Positions 4,867-14,718 of a DNA stretch of 14,771 nt are shown piece by piece. Position 1 is the stretch's first letter. Each line of letters starts with the position of its first letter. Under the pieces are notes generated by a model, which worked only from the letters and a program-made list of their open reading frames with translations, was not told the origin of the DNA and ran no database searches. The translations under genes and the position numbers were made by a program. The DNA is from Acidimicrobiaceae bacterium (GTDB taxonomy: Bacteria; Actinomycetota; Acidimicrobiia; Acidimicrobiales; RAAP-2), in assembly GCA_003131665.1 (NCBI GenBank), contig PKWA01000104.1, positions 18,528 through 33,298 on the forward strand, read 5' to 3'.

Positions 4867-5616
4867 GTGCTGCGCAGCTACGGTGACACGAATCTCTTTG
4901 GAGAGTCCTACGGCGAAGGCCCGGCTCGGGTGCTGTGGCTCCACGGGTGGGCTCGACGCGGCGAGGACTTTCGCGCCGTGGCGCTCGAGTTGGCTCAGCG
5001 TGGCGTGGCCTCGGTCGCCTTGGACTTGCCGGGCTTTGGCGCTTCGCCGGTGCCCGGGCTCGCGGGTGGTGCACGCCACTACGCCGAGCTGATTCTGCCC
5101 GCGGTGAGGGAGATCGCCGATGAACCAGTAGTGCTGGTGGGACACTCCTTCGGCGGTTGTGTGGCGACCGTGATCGCGAGTACGCGCCCAGAGTTGGTTC
5201 GTTCGTTGGTGCTCGTGGCGGCGCCACTTCTTCGAGCCGCGCCGTCACGTGCACCGCGCACGTATCGGATGGTGCGGTGGCTCCACTCGAAAGCTCTCGT
5301 GAGCGACGGGCGAATGGAGGCCGCTCGCCAGAAGTACGGCTCGAGCGACTATCGACGAGCGCACGGTGTGATGCGCGACGTTCTGGTAGCCAGTGTCAAC
5401 GAGAGTTACGAAGGCGAACTCGCGCGTTTGCGCGTGCCCATCGTGTTCCTATGGGGCGAGAACGACCGGGAGGTTCCCGTGGAGGTGGCCAGTCGTTCGG
5501 CCTCGCTACTCACCACCACGCACGAGGAACGCGTTGTCAGTGGCGTTGGTCATCTTGTACCCACAGAAGCGCCCGAAGCCCTCCTGAGCGCCGTCGAAGC
5601 GTCACTGCGATTATGA
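4867..5616 (+). CDS. Alpha/beta-fold hydrolase
   Basis: A 249-residue soluble alpha/beta hydrolase. The oxyanion-hole HGW is at residues 26-28, the nucleophile elbow GHSFGG has S94, the acid is D200 in WGEND, and the catalytic histidine is H229 in GVGHLVP, so the Ser-Asp-His triad is complete with a normal small cap region. The substrate cannot be read from sequence. The stop overlaps the ATG of the Mur ligase gene by 4 bases (ATGA), and a D-Ala-D-Ala-ligase-like gene follows, so an ester, amide or peptide substrate linked to cell-wall precursors is a reasonable inference. The start is uncertain: GTG 4867 is preferred as leaderless (see the -10 at 4854); CTG 4870 would have AAGGAG at 3-base spacing, and no ATG is near. 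The following gene's coding makes an early stop unlikely. Confidence 0.85.
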   Translation: MLRSYGDTNLFGESYGEGPARVLWLHGWARRGEDFRAVALELAQRGVASVALDLPGFGASPVPGLAGGARHYAELILPAVREIADEPVVLVGHSFGGCVATVIASTRPELVRSLVLVAAPLLRAAPSRAPRTYRMVRWLHSKALVSDGRMEAARQKYGSSDYRRAHGVMRDVLVASVNESYEGELARLRVPIVFLWGENDREVPVEVASRSASLLTTTHEERVVSGVGHLVPTEAPEALLSAVEASLRL

Positions 5617-7181
5617 AAGTGGTCGGCGCCGTACTCGTGGCGGTCCTGCTCGCCGTGGCCTACGGCGCGCAGATGTCGCGCTGGCTTCGCGTCCTTCAAC
5701 GCGAGCACTACGACCCACGCTCGATGCTGCGATTCCTCGCTCGATGGTCCTCGCCGTTGGTCGCCGGAGCGAAAGCGCGTACGCGAGTGCGCCCGCACCG
5801 TCCCTTCACGTGGAGTCACGCCTTCCTCGTCGCGATCGCCGCCACCATTGTTCTTCGCTCTTACGTGCTGCTGGCCGTGGTGGGCGCGGGGTACGGACTG
5901 TTCTGTCCCCAGGGACTCTCGATCCGCGGAACGACCAGTCCTTTGGAGTGGACTCGACGTCTTCGCGCAGTGGCGCTGCTCGCCGTCGGACTCTCACTGG
6001 TGGTGGCCGTGCTCGGGGCGTTCACGTCCGAGCCGTACTTGGGCGCCGTGGTCATGGTCTTAGCGGTGCCGCCGATGCTTGATCTCTCGACGCGCCTGCT
6101 TCACCCGCTCGAAGAGCGGCGAGCCCAGAAGTTTGTCGACCAAGCCGTGACGCGGCTCGAACGAATCCACCCGACGGTGGTGGCGATCACCGGATCGTAC
6201 GGAAAGACTTCGACCAAGCACTATCTCGCCGAGCTCTTGAGTGGTGACGGCGCCGTGGTTGCCTCGCCGCGCAGCTACAACAATCGGGCCGGACTGTCGC
6301 GGGCCATCAATGAGAACTTGGCCGAAGGGACGCGGGTTTTCATCGCCGAGATGGGCACGTACGGACCCGGTGAGATTCGCGCGCTCACCTCGTGGTGCCC
6401 GCCCGAGATCGCCGTCATCACCGCCATCGGTCCGGTCCACCTGGAGCGCATGAAGACCCTCGAGGTGGTCGAAGCGGCCAAGCGCGAGATTACCGAGCCG
6501 GCCAAGACCGTCGTGCTCAACGTCGACGACCTGCGCCTCGCCGCGTGGCCCGAGTCGCTGCGAGCGGCGGGCAAGCGCGTCATCGCCGTGGGCTCGATCA
6601 GTACCGAAGCTGAAGTTCGCGTCACGCTCGACGCCAAACGCTGGACGCTGATCGTGGGGGGCGTCAATCTCGGCTCCCTCGATGAAGTGGTGGGCGTGTT
6701 GCCAACGAACCTGGCCTGTGCGCTGGGCGCGGCGCTAGCCCTCGGGCTCGGCCCGACCGAGATGCTCGAGCGCGCCCGGCGCGTGTCGCCCGTCCCCAAT
6801 CGATTGAACGTCGTGACCGCGGAGTCGGGCGTCGTTGTAGTCGATGACACGTTCAACGCGAACCCCGCGAGTGCGAAGGCCGCACTCGCGGTGCTGAGCG
6901 CGCTTGATCTCACCGGCCGTCGAGTCGTCGTCACGCCCGGACTCGTGGAGCTGGGCGAAGAGCAACACACGGAGAATCTTCTGCTCGCTCAACGCGTCGC
7001 GGCCGTGCCGGCCGAGCTCGTCGTTGTCGCGCGAACGAACGTCGCGGCGCTCGAGGCCGGTTACCACAAATCGCTTCGGCGTTTTGACTCGCGTGACGAG
7101 GCCACGGCGTGGATACGCTCGTCGCTCGTGCCCGGTGACGCCGCGTTGTACCTCAACGACCTGCCCGACCACTACCCTTGA
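5613..7181 (+). CDS. Membrane-anchored Mur ligase with MurF-like catalytic core
   Basis: A 522-residue protein with an N-terminal membrane part (about 1-18, 69-98, 117-136 and 142-158 hydrophobic) and a Mur ligase central and C-terminal core. The ATP P-loop is GSYGKTS (194-200), followed by SYNNRAGLSRAI, EMGTYGPGEIRAL and AIGPVHLERM, which are MurF-type elements, then NVDDLRL and DDTFNANPASAK (from D411), the MurF C-terminal signature. True MurF adds D-Ala-D-Ala to UDP-MurNAc-tripeptide, but its N-terminal substrate-binding domain is absent here and replaced by membrane helices. The product may therefore act on a different or lipid-linked acceptor. ATG 5613 overlaps the hydrolase stop (ATGA). 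A Ddl-like gene follows after 30-33 bases, supporting a shared dipeptide-ligation pathway. The frame is open upstream of 5613 but that part lies inside the hydrolase gene. Confidence 0.85.
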   Translation: MKVVGAVLVAVLLAVAYGAQMSRWLRVLQREHYDPRSMLRFLARWSSPLVAGAKARTRVRPHRPFTWSHAFLVAIAATIVLRSYVLLAVVGAGYGLFCPQGLSIRGTTSPLEWTRRLRAVALLAVGLSLVVAVLGAFTSEPYLGAVVMVLAVPPMLDLSTRLLHPLEERRAQKFVDQAVTRLERIHPTVVAITGSYGKTSTKHYLAELLSGDGAVVASPRSYNNRAGLSRAINENLAEGTRVFIAEMGTYGPGEIRALTSWCPPEIAVITAIGPVHLERMKTLEVVEAAKREITEPAKTVVLNVDDLRLAAWPESLRAAGKRVIAVGSISTEAEVRVTLDAKRWTLIVGGVNLGSLDEVVGVLPTNLACALGAALALGLGPTEMLERARRVSPVPNRLNVVTAESGVVVVDDTFNANPASAKAALAVLSALDLTGRRVVVTPGLVELGEEQHTENLLLAQRVAAVPAELVVVARTNVAALEAGYHKSLRRFDSRDEATAWIRSSLVPGDAALYLNDLPDHYP

Positions 7182-7198
7182 GGTCTTAGTGACGCGGT

Positions 7199-7205
7199 GG
7201 AGAGG
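7199..7205 (+). promoter_or_regulatory. Ribosome binding site of the Ddl-like gene
   Basis: GGAGAGG lies 9 bases before ATG 7215 (6 before GTG 7212). This is one of the few clear Shine-Dalgarno sequences in the window and favours ATG 7215 as the start. Confidence 0.6.
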
Positions 7206-7214
7206 TGACCGGTG

Positions 7215-8318
7215 ATGAGTGGAGTGCTCTTTGGGGGTCCCTCTCCCGAACACGACATTTCGGTCCTGACCGGGCTGCAAGCGCTGCGCGAACTCGAACG
7301 AGCCGGGGACGACCCTTTGGGCATCTATTGGACGAAGACGGGATCCTTTTTCTCGGTGGCCAGTGACGTCGAGGCGGACGCTTTCCTCGATGGAGTGCCC
7401 AAAGGCTCTAGCGAACTCGCGCTGCACCTCGGCGACGAAGGGGGTTTGTACGCGAGCGGCGGACGTCGCGGTCGTGGTCGTCGCCTGGACGTGGAGGCCC
7501 TCGTGCTCGCGACGCACGGCGGCCCGGGCGAAGACGGCACCCTCCAAGGAGCCCTCGATCTCGCCGGCATTAACTACACCGGACCCAGCGTGGCCGGGGC
7601 GGCGTTGGGCATGGACAAGTGGACGTTCGCCTCGCTGGTGGAACGGGCGGGACTGCCAACACTGCCTCGCTCACTCCTCACCGGTGACATGTCGTCGTTG
7701 CCCTTCGACGGCCCCTACATCTTGAAGCCTCGTTTTGGCGGTTCGTCGATCGGCATCGACGTCGTCAGCGACTTCGCCACCGCCAAGGCGCGCCTGAAGT
7801 CAAACGCCCACCTCGAGAACGGGTGTGTCGTCGAGACCTTTCGCCACGACTTGACGGATCTTCAGATCGCTATTCGAACCTATCCCGCGCTCGATCTATC
7901 GGCCATTGAACGACCGCTTCGACGTTCCAGTGACGCCGAGATACTCAACTACCGCGATAAGTACGTGGGCGGCGAAGGCATGGTCACGGCGCCGCGCGAG
8001 TTGCCCGCCGTACTGCGCGCTGAGCAGCGCGACGCGATCATTCGCTACGCCACGACGATCGCCGATCTGGCCGCCGTGCGCGGTGTCGCGCGAGTCGATT
8101 TCTTGGCGAGTGAGACCGAGCTCTACGTGAACGAGATCAACACGATTCCCGGCTCACTGGCCAAGCACCTCTTCGTCGATCCGCCGCTGGCGTTCGCGAC
8201 GTTACTTCGAGACCTGTTGAGTGAAGCGCGCGAACGACCAGCTCATCGCTACAGCGTCGCGGGAGCGGACGGCGTCGTTCTTCGTTCCGCGGGTTCCATC
8301 GCCGCCAAACTCGCGTAG
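7215..8318 (+). CDS. D-alanine--D-alanine ligase-like ATP-grasp enzyme
   Basis: A 367-residue ATP-grasp ligase of the Ddl family, which joins two D-alanines (or a D-amino/hydroxy acid pair) in the cytoplasm using ATP. N-terminal LFGGPSPEHDIS matches the Ddl opening box; ATHGGPGEDGTLQG and GMDKW follow; the ATP-grasp lysine region is ILKPRFGGSSIG; the C-terminal catalytic box is RVDFLASETELYVNEINTIPG. After NTIPG the usual Ser-Met-Tyr-Pro type continuation is replaced by SLAKHLF, so the terminal substrate may differ from plain D-Ala. The start is ATG 7215 on the basis of GGAGAGG spacing; GTG 7212 is the alternative. It follows the Mur ligase closely on the same strand. Its last 117 bases overlap the 3' end of the converging BTAD gene, an unusually long overlap. 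Confidence 0.88.
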   Translation: MSGVLFGGPSPEHDISVLTGLQALRELERAGDDPLGIYWTKTGSFFSVASDVEADAFLDGVPKGSSELALHLGDEGGLYASGGRRGRGRRLDVEALVLATHGGPGEDGTLQGALDLAGINYTGPSVAGAALGMDKWTFASLVERAGLPTLPRSLLTGDMSSLPFDGPYILKPRFGGSSIGIDVVSDFATAKARLKSNAHLENGCVVETFRHDLTDLQIAIRTYPALDLSAIERPLRRSSDAEILNYRDKYVGGEGMVTAPRELPAVLRAEQRDAIIRYATTIADLAAVRGVARVDFLASETELYVNEINTIPGSLAKHLFVDPPLAFATLLRDLLSEARERPAHRYSVAGADGVVLRSAGSIAAKLA

Positions 8319-9917
8319 TCGAGGCACGCGGCTCAGGGCCTCGCTCAGCGCGTCGCTAAAGGGATCGATGAGGAGACCTTGCTGTAGCGCCCAAAAGGCC
8401 AAGTCGTAGTTGCGGCGTTCGAGCGAAGTGTGGTGCAGCGCGAGCGCGGCCCACTCGCCATCGCGCGCCAGGCGCGCGCCGTGGCCCTCGGCAAGGAACC
8501 ACTCAAAGCCTCGCAGCGCGCTGGCCAACGGTTCGCCCTTGATGAGTAAGAGGGCCTGGTGGATGAGCGACGACCCGTCGTTGACGGGGAGTTGGCGGGC
8601 GCGTCCAATCAACGTGGAGAAGAGCTCGACGTCGCTGGACAGTCCGTGGGTGACGTACAGCCCCGACGAGGTCACGGGATGAAGTCGCGGACCTCGCGCG
8701 TCGAGCCCCAGACTCCGGCGCACGGCGCTCGCGGTATTGGCCAGGGTGCGATTGGAGGCGTCAACGTCGGCGTGGGTCAAGACGCGCGAACGCAGCCGCT
8801 CTCCGGTGACGGGTTCGTGGCGATGCAGGGCGAGGTACGCCACCATCTCCACGCACCGGCGCCGAAGGGTCGCCGTGAAGGGTTCGAGCAGTCCCAGCAC
8901 CTGGGGGTCGGCCCGCAAGAGTTCCACGCGCAGGTCACTCGACAGAGGGGCGTCACTGGGTGTCACGTGCGCGTAGGAACCCGAGAGTGAGCGGGGATCG
9001 GCGTTGGGCTGCAGGGTTATCGCGCAGGCGGCGAGTTCGTCGTCGAGTTCATTGGCCGCGCCCAGGTAGACGACCAGATTTTGGCGCAGCGATCGAGTCG
9101 CCAGGAACCGTAAGAGTTCTGGTTCGCTTCGAGCGAAGAGCAGCTTGCCGTCGTGTAACGCGACCACGTTGGCCACCACGTCGTCGTGGTTCCACGCCGC
9201 AAGAATTGGTAGTCGACCGCCTTCGCGAGCGAATCCCACGAGCGCACCGTTCGACGTGGCGTCAAGGACGCAGGCCACGACGGGCACGATGGGTCCGTTC
9301 AACGCTCTCGTGGGCGTGGTGTCACGCAGGTTCAGTACGCCCTCGATCCCCTCGCCAATGAGGCAGGCGAGTTGGCCAATGAGTTCGGGGTTGCGTGCGC
9401 GAAGTAGTTCGATGGACTCGTCGACGTCCAATGTCTCAAGATTGTCGGGTTGTTCGCGTAGCAAGTCGCTTCGGCGCTTGGCCATCAGGGCCATTGGCAC
9501 GCCGGCGAGTCCCAGGGGCACACTCGGCGCGTGGTGACGCGGCGTGGGTGTCGAGGTCGCAAAGCCCACGTAAGGAACAGTGATCGTCACCGGCGCCTTC
9601 AGCGTCAGAGCGGACGTTGGTATGACGAGGGCCAGCAGCGCGACGACCAACCCGGCCAACCAGGCACTGCCACCCCCGTTGACGTGCCGGCCCTGTTTGA
9701 GGCGCCAAACGTTCAGCCCGATCTGGATGAGAAAACCTAACCAGAAGATGGCGAGCACGACGAGGAGAGAGTGAACGAGCGCGCCGTTGCGCTCAGTGCT
9801 CGCGAGTCGCCATTTCGTCAAGACCACGTACGGCAGCAGCGCGAAGTATGCCACCAGCGCGGCCCCGTGCACGCGCGCCGCGAGCGGTCGCTTTAGGTGA
9901 CGGGAGTGAGTCGCCAC
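8202..9917 (-). CDS. Membrane-tethered SARP/BTAD-type regulator
   Basis: About 571 residues from GTG 9917. The N-terminus has three hydrophobic segments (about 18-33, 49-68, 84-104), then a possible weak fourth near PLGLAGVPMALMA before a basic AKRR stretch. A long cytoplasmic middle region follows, then a C-terminal winged-helix-like block (RRRCVEMVAYLALHRHEPVT... and a second half with ASNRTLANTASAVRRSLGLD) and a helical bacterial-transcriptional-activation-like (BTAD) tail ending near FGGDGTRGT. Known actinobacterial relatives are TM-LysM-BTAD proteins; I see no LysM here. Such a protein would carry a DNA-binding module tethered to the membrane. The start is uncertain: GTG 9917 overlaps the upstream gene by 25 bp and GTG 9872 would start just before the first helix; neither has a ribosome binding site. 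The frame remains open to 10523, but that stretch is antisense-like Arg/His-rich shadow over the secreted protein gene. Confidence 0.75.
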   Translation of the reverse strand: MATHSRHLKRPLAARVHGAALVAYFALLPYVVLTKWRLASTERNGALVHSLLVVLAIFWLGFLIQIGLNVWRLKQGRHVNGGGSAWLAGLVVALLALVIPTSALTLKAPVTITVPYVGFATSTPTPRHHAPSVPLGLAGVPMALMAKRRSDLLREQPDNLETLDVDESIELLRARNPELIGQLACLIGEGIEGVLNLRDTTPTRALNGPIVPVVACVLDATSNGALVGFAREGGRLPILAAWNHDDVVANVVALHDGKLLFARSEPELLRFLATRSLRQNLVVYLGAANELDDELAACAITLQPNADPRSLSGSYAHVTPSDAPLSSDLRVELLRADPQVLGLLEPFTATLRRRCVEMVAYLALHRHEPVTGERLRSRVLTHADVDASNRTLANTASAVRRSLGLDARGPRLHPVTSSGLYVTHGLSSDVELFSTLIGRARQLPVNDGSSLIHQALLLIKGEPLASALRGFEWFLAEGHGARLARDGEWAALALHHTSLERRNYDLAFWALQQGLLIDPFSDALSEALSRVPRLREFGGDGTRGTKNDAVRSRDAVAMSWSFARFTQQVSK

Positions 9918-10474
9918 GTCAGTGCGGTCACGGGTGAGAGGGCGGAGATGATGAGTTGACAGCTTTGCTTCGAGCCGACCACTATCTCGCCCTGGACCTT
10001 CGTCTCGAGATTGGCGCACTGCACCGTGGTTCTCGCCGGCGAGCTCGTGGCGATTGACCAGGTGCCGGGGCCCTCGAGCGGGACGTCGGCGACGTCGAAG
10101 GACGGACGCAGTCGACCCGTGAGCACGCCGTTCGTCGCGCTCTCGGCGCGTGCGTAGACGACGGGCTTGGCGCTCCAGGCGATCTCGTTCGAGGAGTTGT
10201 TGGCGTTGGGCGCGTTCGTCGACGCCACGGTCGTCAGAGGTCGCGGCGCGAGCGTCGTACTCGTCGTCGTGGCTGATTGCGCGATCGGCGACGAGCTCGT
10301 CGTGGTCGAAGTAATTCGTGGAGTCGTTCGAAGCGTGGTCGCCACGATTGGTTGGTTCGTCGTAACGCTCGGCGTGGAACTCGACGCGGTCAGGGTGAAA
10401 ACGAGGACCAGTAGCAAAAGGGGGCTCGACCACGTCACCCAGTGAGTGCTCTTGAGTGAGTGGGGCATTCGCAT
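9893..10474 (-). CDS. Secreted or membrane-anchored Ser/Thr-rich protein
   Basis: A 193-residue exported protein of no recognised family. ATG 10474 is chosen because CGAGG sits 6 bases before it; the frame opens earlier at GTG 10507, without such a site. The N-terminus has a basic/polar stretch, then the hydrophobic core SSPLLLLVLVFTLTA (about 16-30), a signal peptide or anchor; there is no lipobox cysteine. Residues about 31-85 are almost entirely Ser, Thr, Pro, Ala and Val, a likely extended, possibly glycosylated stalk. The last about 90 residues form a globular part with two cysteines (in QCANLE and QSCQL) that could form a disulfide outside the cell. The gene ends inside the start of the BTAD regulator gene, so the two are probably coupled, suggesting that this protein is an extracytoplasmic partner or sensor. 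Confidence 0.72.
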   Translation of the reverse strand: MRMPHSLKSTHWVTWSSPLLLLVLVFTLTASSSTPSVTTNQPIVATTLRTTPRITSTTTSSSPIAQSATTTSTTLAPRPLTTVASTNAPNANNSSNEIAWSAKPVVYARAESATNGVLTGRLRPSFDVADVPLEGPGTWSIATSSPARTTVQCANLETKVQGEIVVGSKQSCQLIISALSPVTALTWRLTPVT

Positions 10475-10539
10475 GGTGGTCCTCGCACGGTACTCGGTCT
10501 GTTTCACGCAGAAATTTGCTCATATGGTGTCGACGACGC

Positions 10540-11241
10540 TCAAAGTAAGAAGCGCACGGCGAAGTGTTGTAGTTCGCTCTGCAGCGTCAGTGGAGCACTG
10601 TGATCATGGGCCGCGAGCTCGCGCAAGGAGCGGCCCTCGAAGACTCGGGCGTAGGTAAGTCGTACCAATCGGTCGTGCTCGCCGCCGCGCAAGGTTTCGA
10701 GGCGAGTGAGGAGTGGCGACGTCTCCGCCGCCGGCTCGTCCACTTGATCGAAGTGAGAGACGTGTCGTAGCGCGGCCTTTTCTTTCAAGAGCCAGCGACG
10801 CAGACGTCCTCGAAGGGCTGAGAGCAGATCCGGCGCGGCGTACTGTCGCGACTGTCCAGCCCAGTCCACCAGTAACTCACTCAGTAAGGAGATGGCCATC
10901 GAAAGGGTCTCGCTCGCTTCGTCGATGATGCCCTCGCCGAATCGCAGTTGTCGACAGACGCTGACGACGCCGGGTAACAGTGTCTGTAAGAGGGCCCGAT
11001 GGACGTCGGGGTCGCTCGCTTCTTCTAAGAGCGCGCGCACGATCTGCGCTCTTTCCAAGACGTTGCGGCCGCTTCTGGTCTCCAGCAGCGCCACGACCGC
11101 GTGCAGATCTTCCAGCGCGCCGAGTTGGAGTTCCGGGTGACGCTGCGCCACTCGACCACAGGCCTCGCGCGCGCTCGGACTTCTTCCGGCCCTCCGCCAT
11201 TCGAGTCGCAGATTGCCCAGGAGGTCGTAGTTGGTTGTCAT
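10540..11241 (-). CDS. Sigma-factor-like regulatory protein (uncertain)
   Basis: A 233-residue, mostly helical protein. The C-terminus (about 190-230) reads RLVRLTYARVFEGRSLRELA, similar to region 4 of sigma-70 factors and related helix-turn-helix proteins, but the tail after it is short. The middle (about 80-165), with RALLQTLLPGVVSVCRQLR, an acidic DEASETLSMAISLL segment and a basic GRLRRWLLKEKA stretch, recalls sigma-like actinobacterial proteins of unknown role. I infer a DNA- or RNA-polymerase-binding regulator; no function is proven. ATG 11241 is preferred to the longer frame from 11355, whose extra part shows no protein-like pattern and covers the divergent promoter region. The 65-bp gap to the next gene suggests one operon with the secreted protein and the BTAD regulator. 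Confidence 0.65.
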   Translation of the reverse strand: MTTNYDLLGNLRLEWRRAGRSPSAREACGRVAQRHPELQLGALEDLHAVVALLETRSGRNVLERAQIVRALLEEASDPDVHRALLQTLLPGVVSVCRQLRFGEGIIDEASETLSMAISLLSELLVDWAGQSRQYAAPDLLSALRGRLRRWLLKEKAALRHVSHFDQVDEPAAETSPLLTRLETLRGGEHDRLVRLTYARVFEGRSLRELAAHDHSAPLTLQSELQHFAVRFLL

Positions 11242-13422: not shown

Positions 13423-13496
13423 GGGCGCTTAGCTCAGTTGGCTAGAGCAGCTGATTTACACTCAGCAGGTCGGGGGTTCGAGTCCCTCAGCGCCCA
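13423..13496 (+). tRNA. tRNA-Val (anticodon UAC)
   Basis: A 74-base cloverleaf. The acceptor GGGCGCT (13423-13429) pairs with AGCGCCC (13489-13495) and the discriminator is A13496. The D arm is AGCTCAGTTGGCTAGAGC-like. The anticodon stem GCTGA (13450-13454) pairs with TCAGC (13462-13466) around the loop TTTACAC, giving TAC at 13457-13459, which reads GUA and other valine codons. The T stem GGGGG (13472-13476) pairs with CCCTC (13484-13488) with one G-T pair, around the loop TTCGAGT. The 3' CCA is not encoded. The gene starts 13 bp after the phosphatase stop, so it is either cotranscribed or uses a promoter within that gene. Confidence 0.96.
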
Positions 13497-13505
13497 CTCC
13501 TGTTT

Positions 13506-13524
13506 TGTAGCGAGACATCGTGGA
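13506..13524 (+). repeat. Left terminal inverted repeat of the IS
   Basis: TGTAGCGAGACATCGTGGA here matches, inverted, TGTTGCGAGACATAGTGGA at the right end, with 17 of 19 bases identical. Similarity stops outward of base 13506, which supports that base as the left boundary. Confidence 0.7.
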
Positions 13525-13542
13525 AAAACGAACCCCTGAATT

Positions 13543-14697
13543 CTAGCTTTCCTTCGGCTTGGCCATCGTTTGGTAGTTCCTTTCGGGGTTGATGGTGATC
13601 TCTCCTAAGAAGGTTCCGTCGTCGTCGAGCACGCGGATGTGCTCGTCGACGATGTAGAGACGCACGCGCTTGCCGCGGTGGTGGTGACCGATGCGCACGT
13701 GCAGTACCCGTCCACGGTAGCGGAGAGTGATCTTGCCCCAAGGGTCGACCACATCCTTTCTGAGTCGGTGGTGCGGCTGATTGATCAACGTGTGGGCCGT
13801 GGCTTTGCCCCGGGCCTCGTAGGCCTGGCGCGGCGTGACGCGGCCCTTGGAACGGTGCGGTCGCTGCTCGTTGTAACGAAGAACGACGCGGTCGAGCACT
13901 TGCTGCAGCTCCTCGAGCGACGACGCCGGGTTCTTCACGAGGTAGCGCTTCAAGGTCTGATGCCAGCGCTCGACCTTTCCGCAGGTCTGGGGGTGATAGG
14001 GCGAGGAGTGCTTATAGAGCACGCCGGCGCTGAGCAGATCGCTCTCGAAACCACTGCGACCCCCGCGGTGCGCGGCGTTAAAGATGGCCCCATTGTCCGT
14101 CAACACCGAAGCGGGCGTTCCCCAGATGACACAGGCCCTTTTAAAGAGGTCGCGCACGTCGTGGGCCCGGACAACTGCGTGCACTTCGCAACCGACCACC
14201 ACGCGTGAGTGGTCGTCGATGAAGTTGATGATCTCGACCTCGGTGCCGTCATCTAACTGCCAGTGGGTCATGTCCCCCTGCCAGCACTCATTGGGTAGGT
14301 CCGCCTCGAAGCGAATGTAGGAGGCTTTCGGGCGCTTTCGCGGTTCGGGGGTGATGAAGCCGCGTCGCTTTAACGCGAAGTAGATCGCACTCGCCGAGGG
14401 CACGTTCTCTCGGCGCTTCTCTAAGTGCCAGAGGATCGTCTGCGCGCCGGCGTCGTCACCGCCATCGAGGAGTTCTTTGCGCAGCGCCACGATCTCGTCC
14501 TCCACGTCGTGGCTCATCTGGCGCGGGTTGGCGTGGGGACGCTTGGAGCGTGGCTCGAGCGCCGCCGCGCCGCCACTTCGGTAACGACGGACGAGCTCGT
14601 AGACCCAGGACTTCGAGACGCCGTAAGCGAGGGCCGTCGCTCGGATCGAGCGACCCTCCAACACCACCGAATCGACCACCATCTGCGCCAAAACCAT
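13543..14697 (-). CDS. IS481-family DDE transposase
   Basis: A 384-residue cut-and-paste-type DDE transposase with an integrase (rve) core. An N-terminal helix-turn-helix (about 12-42, with GRSIRATALAYGVSKSWVYE) binds the ends. The catalytic triad is D142 in QGDMTHW, D201 in VLTDNGA and E243 in GKVERWH, with the IS481 hallmark SSPYHPQTCGKVERWHQTL. The C-terminal part ends in a small beta domain (RGKRVRLYIVDEHIRVLDDD). All residues are intact and there is no frameshift, so the enzyme may be active. ATG 14697 is chosen because AGGGG lies 8 bases before it; GTG 14706 is the alternative in-frame start. It points towards the tRNA gene. Confidence 0.92.
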   Translation of the reverse strand: MVLAQMVVDSVVLEGRSIRATALAYGVSKSWVYELVRRYRSGGAAALEPRSKRPHANPRQMSHDVEDEIVALRKELLDGGDDAGAQTILWHLEKRRENVPSASAIYFALKRRGFITPEPRKRPKASYIRFEADLPNECWQGDMTHWQLDDGTEVEIINFIDDHSRVVVGCEVHAVVRAHDVRDLFKRACVIWGTPASVLTDNGAIFNAAHRGGRSGFESDLLSAGVLYKHSSPYHPQTCGKVERWHQTLKRYLVKNPASSLEELQQVLDRVVLRYNEQRPHRSKGRVTPRQAYEARGKATAHTLINQPHHRLRKDVVDPWGKITLRYRGRVLHVRIGHHHRGKRVRLYIVDEHIRVLDDDGTFLGEITINPERNYQTMAKPKES

Positions 14698-14718
14698 AGG
14701 AAGCACCCCTAAAGAAAG

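Follow-up and report, generated by a model that had tools for sequence, protein, structure and literature searches.

A Ser/Thr-rich stalk-protein gene probably nested within a membrane-bound BTAD regulator gene across an acidimicrobial genus

Few overlapping frames besides terminal overlaps are known in bacteria, according to a report on Thermus, in which rpmH lies nested in rnpA and both starts share one ribosome-binding site, AUGGAUG (PMC9841429). Other papers state that prokaryotes have few fully established long overlapping genes, with the known cases tending to be taxonomically restricted (PMC9927249), that long same-strand overlaps become rarer with increasing length (PMC3887535), and mention embedded genes in archaea and bacteria (PMC8665328). 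Here we describe a 14,771-nucleotide stretch (the window) of contig PKWA01000104.1, positions 18,528 to 33,298, from a 1.9-Mb draft genome of an Acidimicrobiaceae bacterium with a completeness of 80%, whose closest named relatives are Acidimicrobiaceae metagenome-assembled genomes with the labels palsa, bog and fen. Three consecutive minus-strand genes of the window encode, in transcription order, a sigma-like protein, a Ser/Thr-rich protein that we call the stalk protein, and a membrane protein with a BTAD module (Table 1). The likeness to the Thermus pair (PMC9841429) would be that of two same-strand genes, one wholly within the other in a different frame; unlike that pair, the starts in the window lie 49 nucleotides apart, the outer gene encodes a membrane regulator, and constraint alternates between the frames along the overlap. 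We put at roughly 0.8 the probability that the arrangement is a genus-wide, same-strand nested gene pair in which an old stalk gene was overprinted by a 5' extension of the regulator gene.

The other components of the locus have described counterparts as well. Among these are the LysM-BTAD membrane proteins of actinobacteria, with members in L112-L114, L118-L125 and others; they occupy the same syntenic place and share the helices and the C-terminal winged helix and BTAD, whereas the window protein lacks LysM and has the putatively overprinted tail. EmbR and AfsR, too, have a winged helix followed by BTAD. Their chains are soluble regulators, whereas here the module ends a polytopic membrane protein. 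CadC and ToxR, which are weaker profile matches, also join an OmpR-type winged helix to a membrane protein. They have an N-terminal winged helix and one membrane helix, whereas the winged helix here is C-terminal, comes after several helices and bears a BTAD domain. The first gene resembles ECF-type sigma factors that have a membrane partner next to them, both in the sigma2 and sigma4 folds and in the membrane-protein gene beside it; unlike them, the sigma-like protein of the window has additional helices at its N-terminus, which superpose on what precedes sigma2 in group 1/2 factors, and the stalk protein has no recognisable anti-sigma domain (no Pfam match). Literature searches for LysM with BTAD or SARP, and for overlapping genes in Acidimicrobiia, returned nothing relevant, a weak negative since subscription papers were mostly out of reach.

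A first-pass annotation, made from the letters of the window without database searches, had recognised the three consecutive minus-strand genes, which we confirmed (11241-10540, the Ser/Thr-rich gene, and the BTAD gene ending at 8202), and had the stalk gene run 25 bp into the BTAD gene if the latter starts at GTG 9917. The arithmetic is right for that start, but the start is probably ATG 10523. The BTAD frame runs open upstream of GTG 9917, through the entire stalk gene, to ATG 10523, and because this openness is kept in 44 of 48 loci of the genus, the overlap would comprise the entire stalk gene and not 25 bp. The nested arrangement, absent from the first-pass annotation, is the most unusual feature of the locus.

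To count stops in the BTAD frame across the stalk gene, 48 of 54 genus loci were analysed, with the expectation taken from shuffling synonymous codons; four loci at contig edges, one with N and one without a recognised stalk gene were dropped, and two pairs among the 48 share identical stalk genes. We observed 10 stops against 116 expected. The same test gave ratios of observed to expected of 0.82 for sigma, 0.90 for the BTAD middle and 0.86 for the BTAD core, and of 0.76 for the stalk genes of 21 loci from other genera. The third frame of the stalk gene was not depleted (390 stops versus 328 expected). When representatives sharing less than 70% sigma identity were picked from the full set of 48, the resulting 25 loci had 9-10 stops versus 57, and 21-22 of them were open versus 4.3 expected. 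An earlier representative test (0 stops versus 47 in 21 loci) is not used, as it drew open loci only and was zero by construction. An alternative count of 46 loci (43 open, 6.0 expected) differs in that a name filter omitted L110 and one locus had no frame offset.

The depletion is even along the stalk gene, with 1, 1, 1, 4 and 3 stops in successive fifths against 19.7, 18.1, 29.3, 23.1 and 23.1 expected. This bears on a reading in which a programmed frameshift joins the stalk to the BTAD frame and yields a stalk-regulator fusion beside the stalk protein. Such a shift would require openness only downstream of the shift site, whereas the depletion begins in the first fifth and a candidate start belonging to the BTAD frame is available at the sigma stop; we consider a frameshift very improbable. 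In the window, that start lies 16 nucleotides past the sigma stop. Among the 44 open loci, 43 have a BTAD-frame start codon between positions -6 and +24 relative to the sigma stop, whereas the other two frames have one there in 20 and 13 loci; 15 of the BTAD-frame starts sit exactly at -4. A Shine-Dalgarno match of at least 4 precedes the BTAD start in 15 of 42 loci scanned, against 12% in the control. BTAD translation may be coupled to sigma translation.

The open frame extends to a second genus, g2 (L168, L169, L170, L171), where four of five genomes also keep it across the whole stalk gene. Their BTAD frames start at -4 of the sigma stop, as GTGA or ATGA, and their stalk proteins have a single Cys. 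The g2 loci scanned for LysM (L168 and L169) keep it. Their tails are unrelated, and the basic segment described below was not seen in the two g2 loci read. Since the open frame is found in g2 too, the nesting would be older than both genera or have arisen twice; in most other genera, a BTAD tail was not seen.

The segment tests drew on the open loci, either all 44 or a subset of 21, and centred on columns 183-216 (~33 codons) of an alignment based on the stalk protein. Conservation of the stalk frame is poor in this segment; translated in the BTAD frame, it gives approximately R-D-x-F-x-R-x-x-x-R-x-R-x-x-R-E-x-x-E-R-R, with Arg at its Arg positions in up to 41 of 44 loci. Over 690 distant pairs, identity was 0.273 in the BTAD frame and 0.181 in the stalk frame, against a null of 0.130 (maximum 0.143 in 100 shuffles). 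Within the segment, the stalk second position, which is the BTAD wobble position, changed fastest (0.609 versus 0.570 and 0.506), and it did so in nearer pairs as well (0.545 versus 0.382 and 0.378); in the five other sub-segments, the stalk third position was fastest. For 30-codon windows, the +2 frame was above the true frame in 0 of 577 controls versus 30 of 150 in the stalk gene, and the +1 frame was above the stalk frame in 32 of 150 versus 1 of 577 controls, a weaker excess than that of +2.

A site-class estimate, modelled on the idea of OLGenie and implemented by ourselves, gave a segment dNN/dNS of 0.58 (0.46-0.74) and 0.69 (0.55-0.81) for the BTAD frame; the stalk frame showed 0.91 and 1.00 there. 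Outside the segment, the stalk frame had a dNN/dSN of 0.61-0.73. In eight pairs, the ratio of nonsynonymous to synonymous divergence (dN/dS) for the stalk gene was 0.33-0.66. Fourfold-site divergence in the stalk gene was below that of sigma in 6/6 pairs and below that of BTAD in 5/6; by identity bins it was below all three controls in four of five, and in the remaining bin it exceeded that of the BTAD core. This lower divergence is supportive, not decisive, because the sites saturate. Taken as a signature of overprinting, the pattern indicates that both frames are under purifying selection, in different segments, and suggests ~200 codons of same-strand dual coding. Overprinting would very probably have supplied the regulator with a new, conserved basic segment at the very place where the stalk protein can vary freely.

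The segment could also be a DNA or RNA element, such as an operator, promoter or structured leader, and not a protein feature. Both proteins are poorly conserved around it, and such elements can sit inside genes. It would be hard for such an element to account for a fastest-changing base that recurs every third position at the BTAD wobble, or for a frame open on both sides, and the window segment folds no better as RNA than its shuffles (z -0.02, one sequence); we therefore rate a nucleic-acid element as highly unlikely.

Several observations weigh against the nested pair or the unit as a whole. Four of the 48 loci (G245, G199, G231 and G205) lack the open frame, and no Shine-Dalgarno match was found at ATG 10523 of the window. 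Outside the segment, the BTAD frame has a dNN/dNS of 1.18-1.44, meaning no amino-acid constraint, and its identity is within the null range in columns 50-120 and 120-183. The segment's dSN/dSS was 1.49 and 1.26, again no constraint, with very few SS sites and wide intervals. The window BTAD protein alone has no Pfam match above the cut-off (best, Trans_reg_C, E 0.0048, 17.4 bits versus a cut-off of 26.2). Finally, the whole neighbourhood is kept too, including helicase, hydrolase, Mur-ligase-like, Ddl-like (D-Ala-D-Ala-ligase-like) and inositol-phosphatase-like genes; as these flanking genes are conserved as well, gene order alone is no proof of a functional unit, and the argument from adjacency is weakened.

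If the long BTAD frame were an artefact of G+C-rich, Thr-rich codons, the start would be GTG 9917 or GTG 9872 and the overlap 25 nucleotides or none. The missing Shine-Dalgarno match would fit, many database entries begin near 9917 or 9872, codon shuffling of the window alone keeps the frame open in 4.9% of trials, and BTAD-frame dN/dS over the whole gene exceeds 1 in 8/8 pairs. Among the 120 database homologues listed, 44 are annotated with at least 740 residues. On the dN/dS result, the 773-residue frame had been considered a mis-annotation, an argument dropped after the stop and segment tests because stalk-frame constraint alone raises the BTAD-frame ratio. Stop depletion across divergent loci with controls, the conservation and periodicity of the segment, and the clustering of BTAD-frame starts at the sigma stop all speak against an artefact, which we regard as improbable.

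Table 1. Positions of the features discussed, in window coordinates
Feature	Position	Strand	Basis or remark
Sigma-like gene, 233 residues	10540..11241	-	predicted sigma2, residues 1-155; sigma4, 172-233
BTAD regulator gene, proposed full length 773 residues, start ATG 10523	8202..10523	-	open frame, stop depletion, segment tests
Proposed N-terminal tail of BTAD protein, about 200 codons	9918..10523	-	putatively overprinted on stalk gene
Ser/Thr-rich stalk-protein gene, 193 residues from ATG 10474	9893..10474	-	nested inside BTAD frame
Conserved basic segment of BTAD tail (ERDRLERQARRLRTRRERDERR in window)	10119..10190 (about)	-	BTAD frame more conserved than stalk frame
Three hydrophobic helices of BTAD protein	9603..9872 (about 9872-9816, 9782-9726, 9659-9603)	-	hydropathy scan
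Short weaker hydrophobic stretch before conserved A-K-R-R, possible fourth helix	9480..9524	-	conserved columns
Winged helix and BTAD region, EmbR/AfsR type	8286..8951	-	match of profile A5 to solved structures; Pfam domains in 51 members
Convergent overlap of BTAD gene end and D-Ala-D-Ala-ligase-like gene, 117 nucleotides	8202..8318	both
D-Ala-D-Ala-ligase-like gene	7212-8318	+	convergent to BTAD gene

The inner gene has putative start signals of its own, with GAGGA at 10484-10480 before its ATG and an alternative start at GTG 10507. Its product has, as first annotated, a Ser/Thr-rich composition (31% S+T) and two cysteines. It was also described as secreted; a single N-terminal hydrophobic segment is present, but by eye we saw no conserved signal-peptidase site, and an uncleaved membrane anchor is as likely as secretion. 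Homologues occur in other genera; across the family the protein has a hydrophobic segment near its N-terminus and usually two Cys in the C-terminal domain, with one to four in some genera. No Pfam match was found for the stalk protein.

Adjacency in other genomes, fixed beforehand as a test of the three genes as a unit, did not refute it. In 120 family genomes we found a strong BTAD match in 91, and 80 of these have a sigma match directly upstream on the same strand within 5 kb; in the remaining 11, the sigma match is on another contig (7) or missing (4). Among the loci in which both genes were read, almost every one has a Ser/Thr-rich gene between sigma and BTAD. Among the 29 genomes without a strong BTAD match, 23 also lack a sigma match, and genome G248 of the same genus has neither. 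The order of the three genes is kept while spacing and LysM vary, and on this comparison they form a putative family-conserved operon. The three genes may instead be neighbours by chromosome order only, with the sigma-like protein belonging to a conjugative-element family and serving another role. The conserved flanks would agree with this, as would sigma-like relatives near a TrwC-type relaxase and a TraG/TraD-type coupling protein and the own-genome paralogue near an FtsK-like gene. The joint absence of sigma and BTAD matches, the order kept despite varying spacing and LysM, and the nesting, which ties two of the genes together, make mere neighbourhood unlikely, though it deserves some weight.

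The regulator was first described as a three-helix membrane protein. The three helices are clear; there is in addition the weaker stretch before A-K-R-R, below the hydropathy-scan threshold in the window protein, where several LysM-bearing relatives have a fourth helix. The SARP/BTAD module proposed for its C-terminus is supported by a profile built from 51 relatives, the window protein among them, which matches EmbR (E 7.5e-9) and AfsR (E 2.1e-5) with both domains covered; of these 51, Pfam recognised Trans_reg_C in 30 and BTAD in 19. Of two further profiles compared with solved structures, A3 gave chance matches only and A4 matched LysM only. The C-terminus is thus predicted, by sequence profile only, to be a winged helix followed by BTAD of the EmbR/AfsR (SARP-type) kind, which agrees with the winged helix and helical repeat that the first-pass annotation expected.

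That annotation also found the LysM-free form unfamiliar. LysM is indeed absent here, but the protein is the syntenic counterpart of LysM-BTAD proteins and no separate kind. Pfam LysM was found in 14 of 26 BTAD members, and presence or absence was scored with a home-made LysM profile. Within the genus, LysM is absent from 51 of 54 loci (one of them, L163, a cut-short locus) and was detected in G110, G240 and G261. Among 23 loci from other genera, 18 have it, and those without are G163, G158, G190, G208 and the cut-short G196. On the tree of the C-terminal domain, the LysM label needs five changes, four of them forced by well supported branches. From this tree, the LysM-free form appears to be a derived state, with LysM lost repeatedly. 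In relatives, LysM is placed after helix 3 and, where seen, before the fourth helix. Because LysM binds peptidoglycan, the LysM-site segment would be outside and the BTAD C-terminus inside the cell, which makes a cytoplasmic C-terminus plausible.

The sigma-like identity of the first gene, also claimed earlier, agrees with an AlphaFold2 model (pLDDT 90.5) of a two-domain sigma fold; by title, all 50 structures listed in a PDB comparison are sigma factors or polymerase complexes holding one. The gene is predicted by fold to encode a sigma-70-type protein, with sigma2 and sigma4 in order. Pfam gave no sigma match for the window protein; in 22 family members it found Sigma70_r4_2 in 9, Sigma70_r4 in 2 (best 1.6e-5) and Sigma70_ECF in 3, and no separate sigma region-2 model was among the 25 Pfam families listed. 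A paralogue with 38% identity lies on contig C85 of the same genome (L131 8667-9395); the contig also carries an FtsK-like gene and encodes a HEAT-repeat protein with DUF4365. Distant relatives are found near the TrwC-type relaxase in L133, with members of the same cluster in L129 and L135, and near the TraG/TraD-type coupling protein in L134, with a member of that cluster in L136. They perhaps belong to a sigma family of conjugative elements.

At its 3' end, the regulator gene overlaps the Ddl-like gene, which the first-pass annotation does not mention. An identical 117-nucleotide overlap was observed in 9 of 26 gene pairs compared (window counted), with 63-102 nucleotides in some others. With the stalk gene overlapped at the 5' end, the regulator gene would share DNA with a neighbour at both ends. 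Mur-ligase-like and D-Ala-D-Ala-ligase-like genes (window 5613-8318) are convergent to the operon in many family loci, which gives the regulator a cell-wall context. At window 13423-14706, tRNA-Val (tac; 13423-13497) adjoins a gene with integrase-core and IS481-type matches, a possible insertion site.

We propose that in this genus the regulator gene would begin at the sigma stop codon, with the stalk gene wholly within its first ~200 codons in another frame, and that the overlap would add to the regulator a charged, presumably cytoplasmic tail with the conserved basic segment. The stalk would be anchored in the membrane with its domain outside, and together with the regulator's extracytoplasmic loop (LysM in most other genera) it may report wall state. 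This state would reach the winged helix-BTAD part, which, with the sigma factor serving the same regulon, may change envelope-gene transcription. A single mRNA and coupled starts would link the amounts of the three proteins, and nesting those of stalk and regulator. It is likely, in our estimation, that this is an operon with a nested stalk gene whose regulator and sigma respond to wall state and alter envelope-gene transcription; for shared envelope regulation the odds are about even, and the three genes may act as a signalling unit.

Well-established cases of long nested genes on the same strand are rare in bacteria. Within the genus studied here, more than half of the sigma residues differ between members, which makes it possible to measure directly how two frames share constraint, and natural contrasts are at hand in loci with and without the overlap and with and without LysM. 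The database length given for the same protein is either about 550-580 or about 775-790 residues, which exposes a systematic annotation problem. The comparison defines a putative family-wide sigma, stalk and BTAD operon, and, if true, the nested pair would show how overprinting creates a new segment of a cellular protein.

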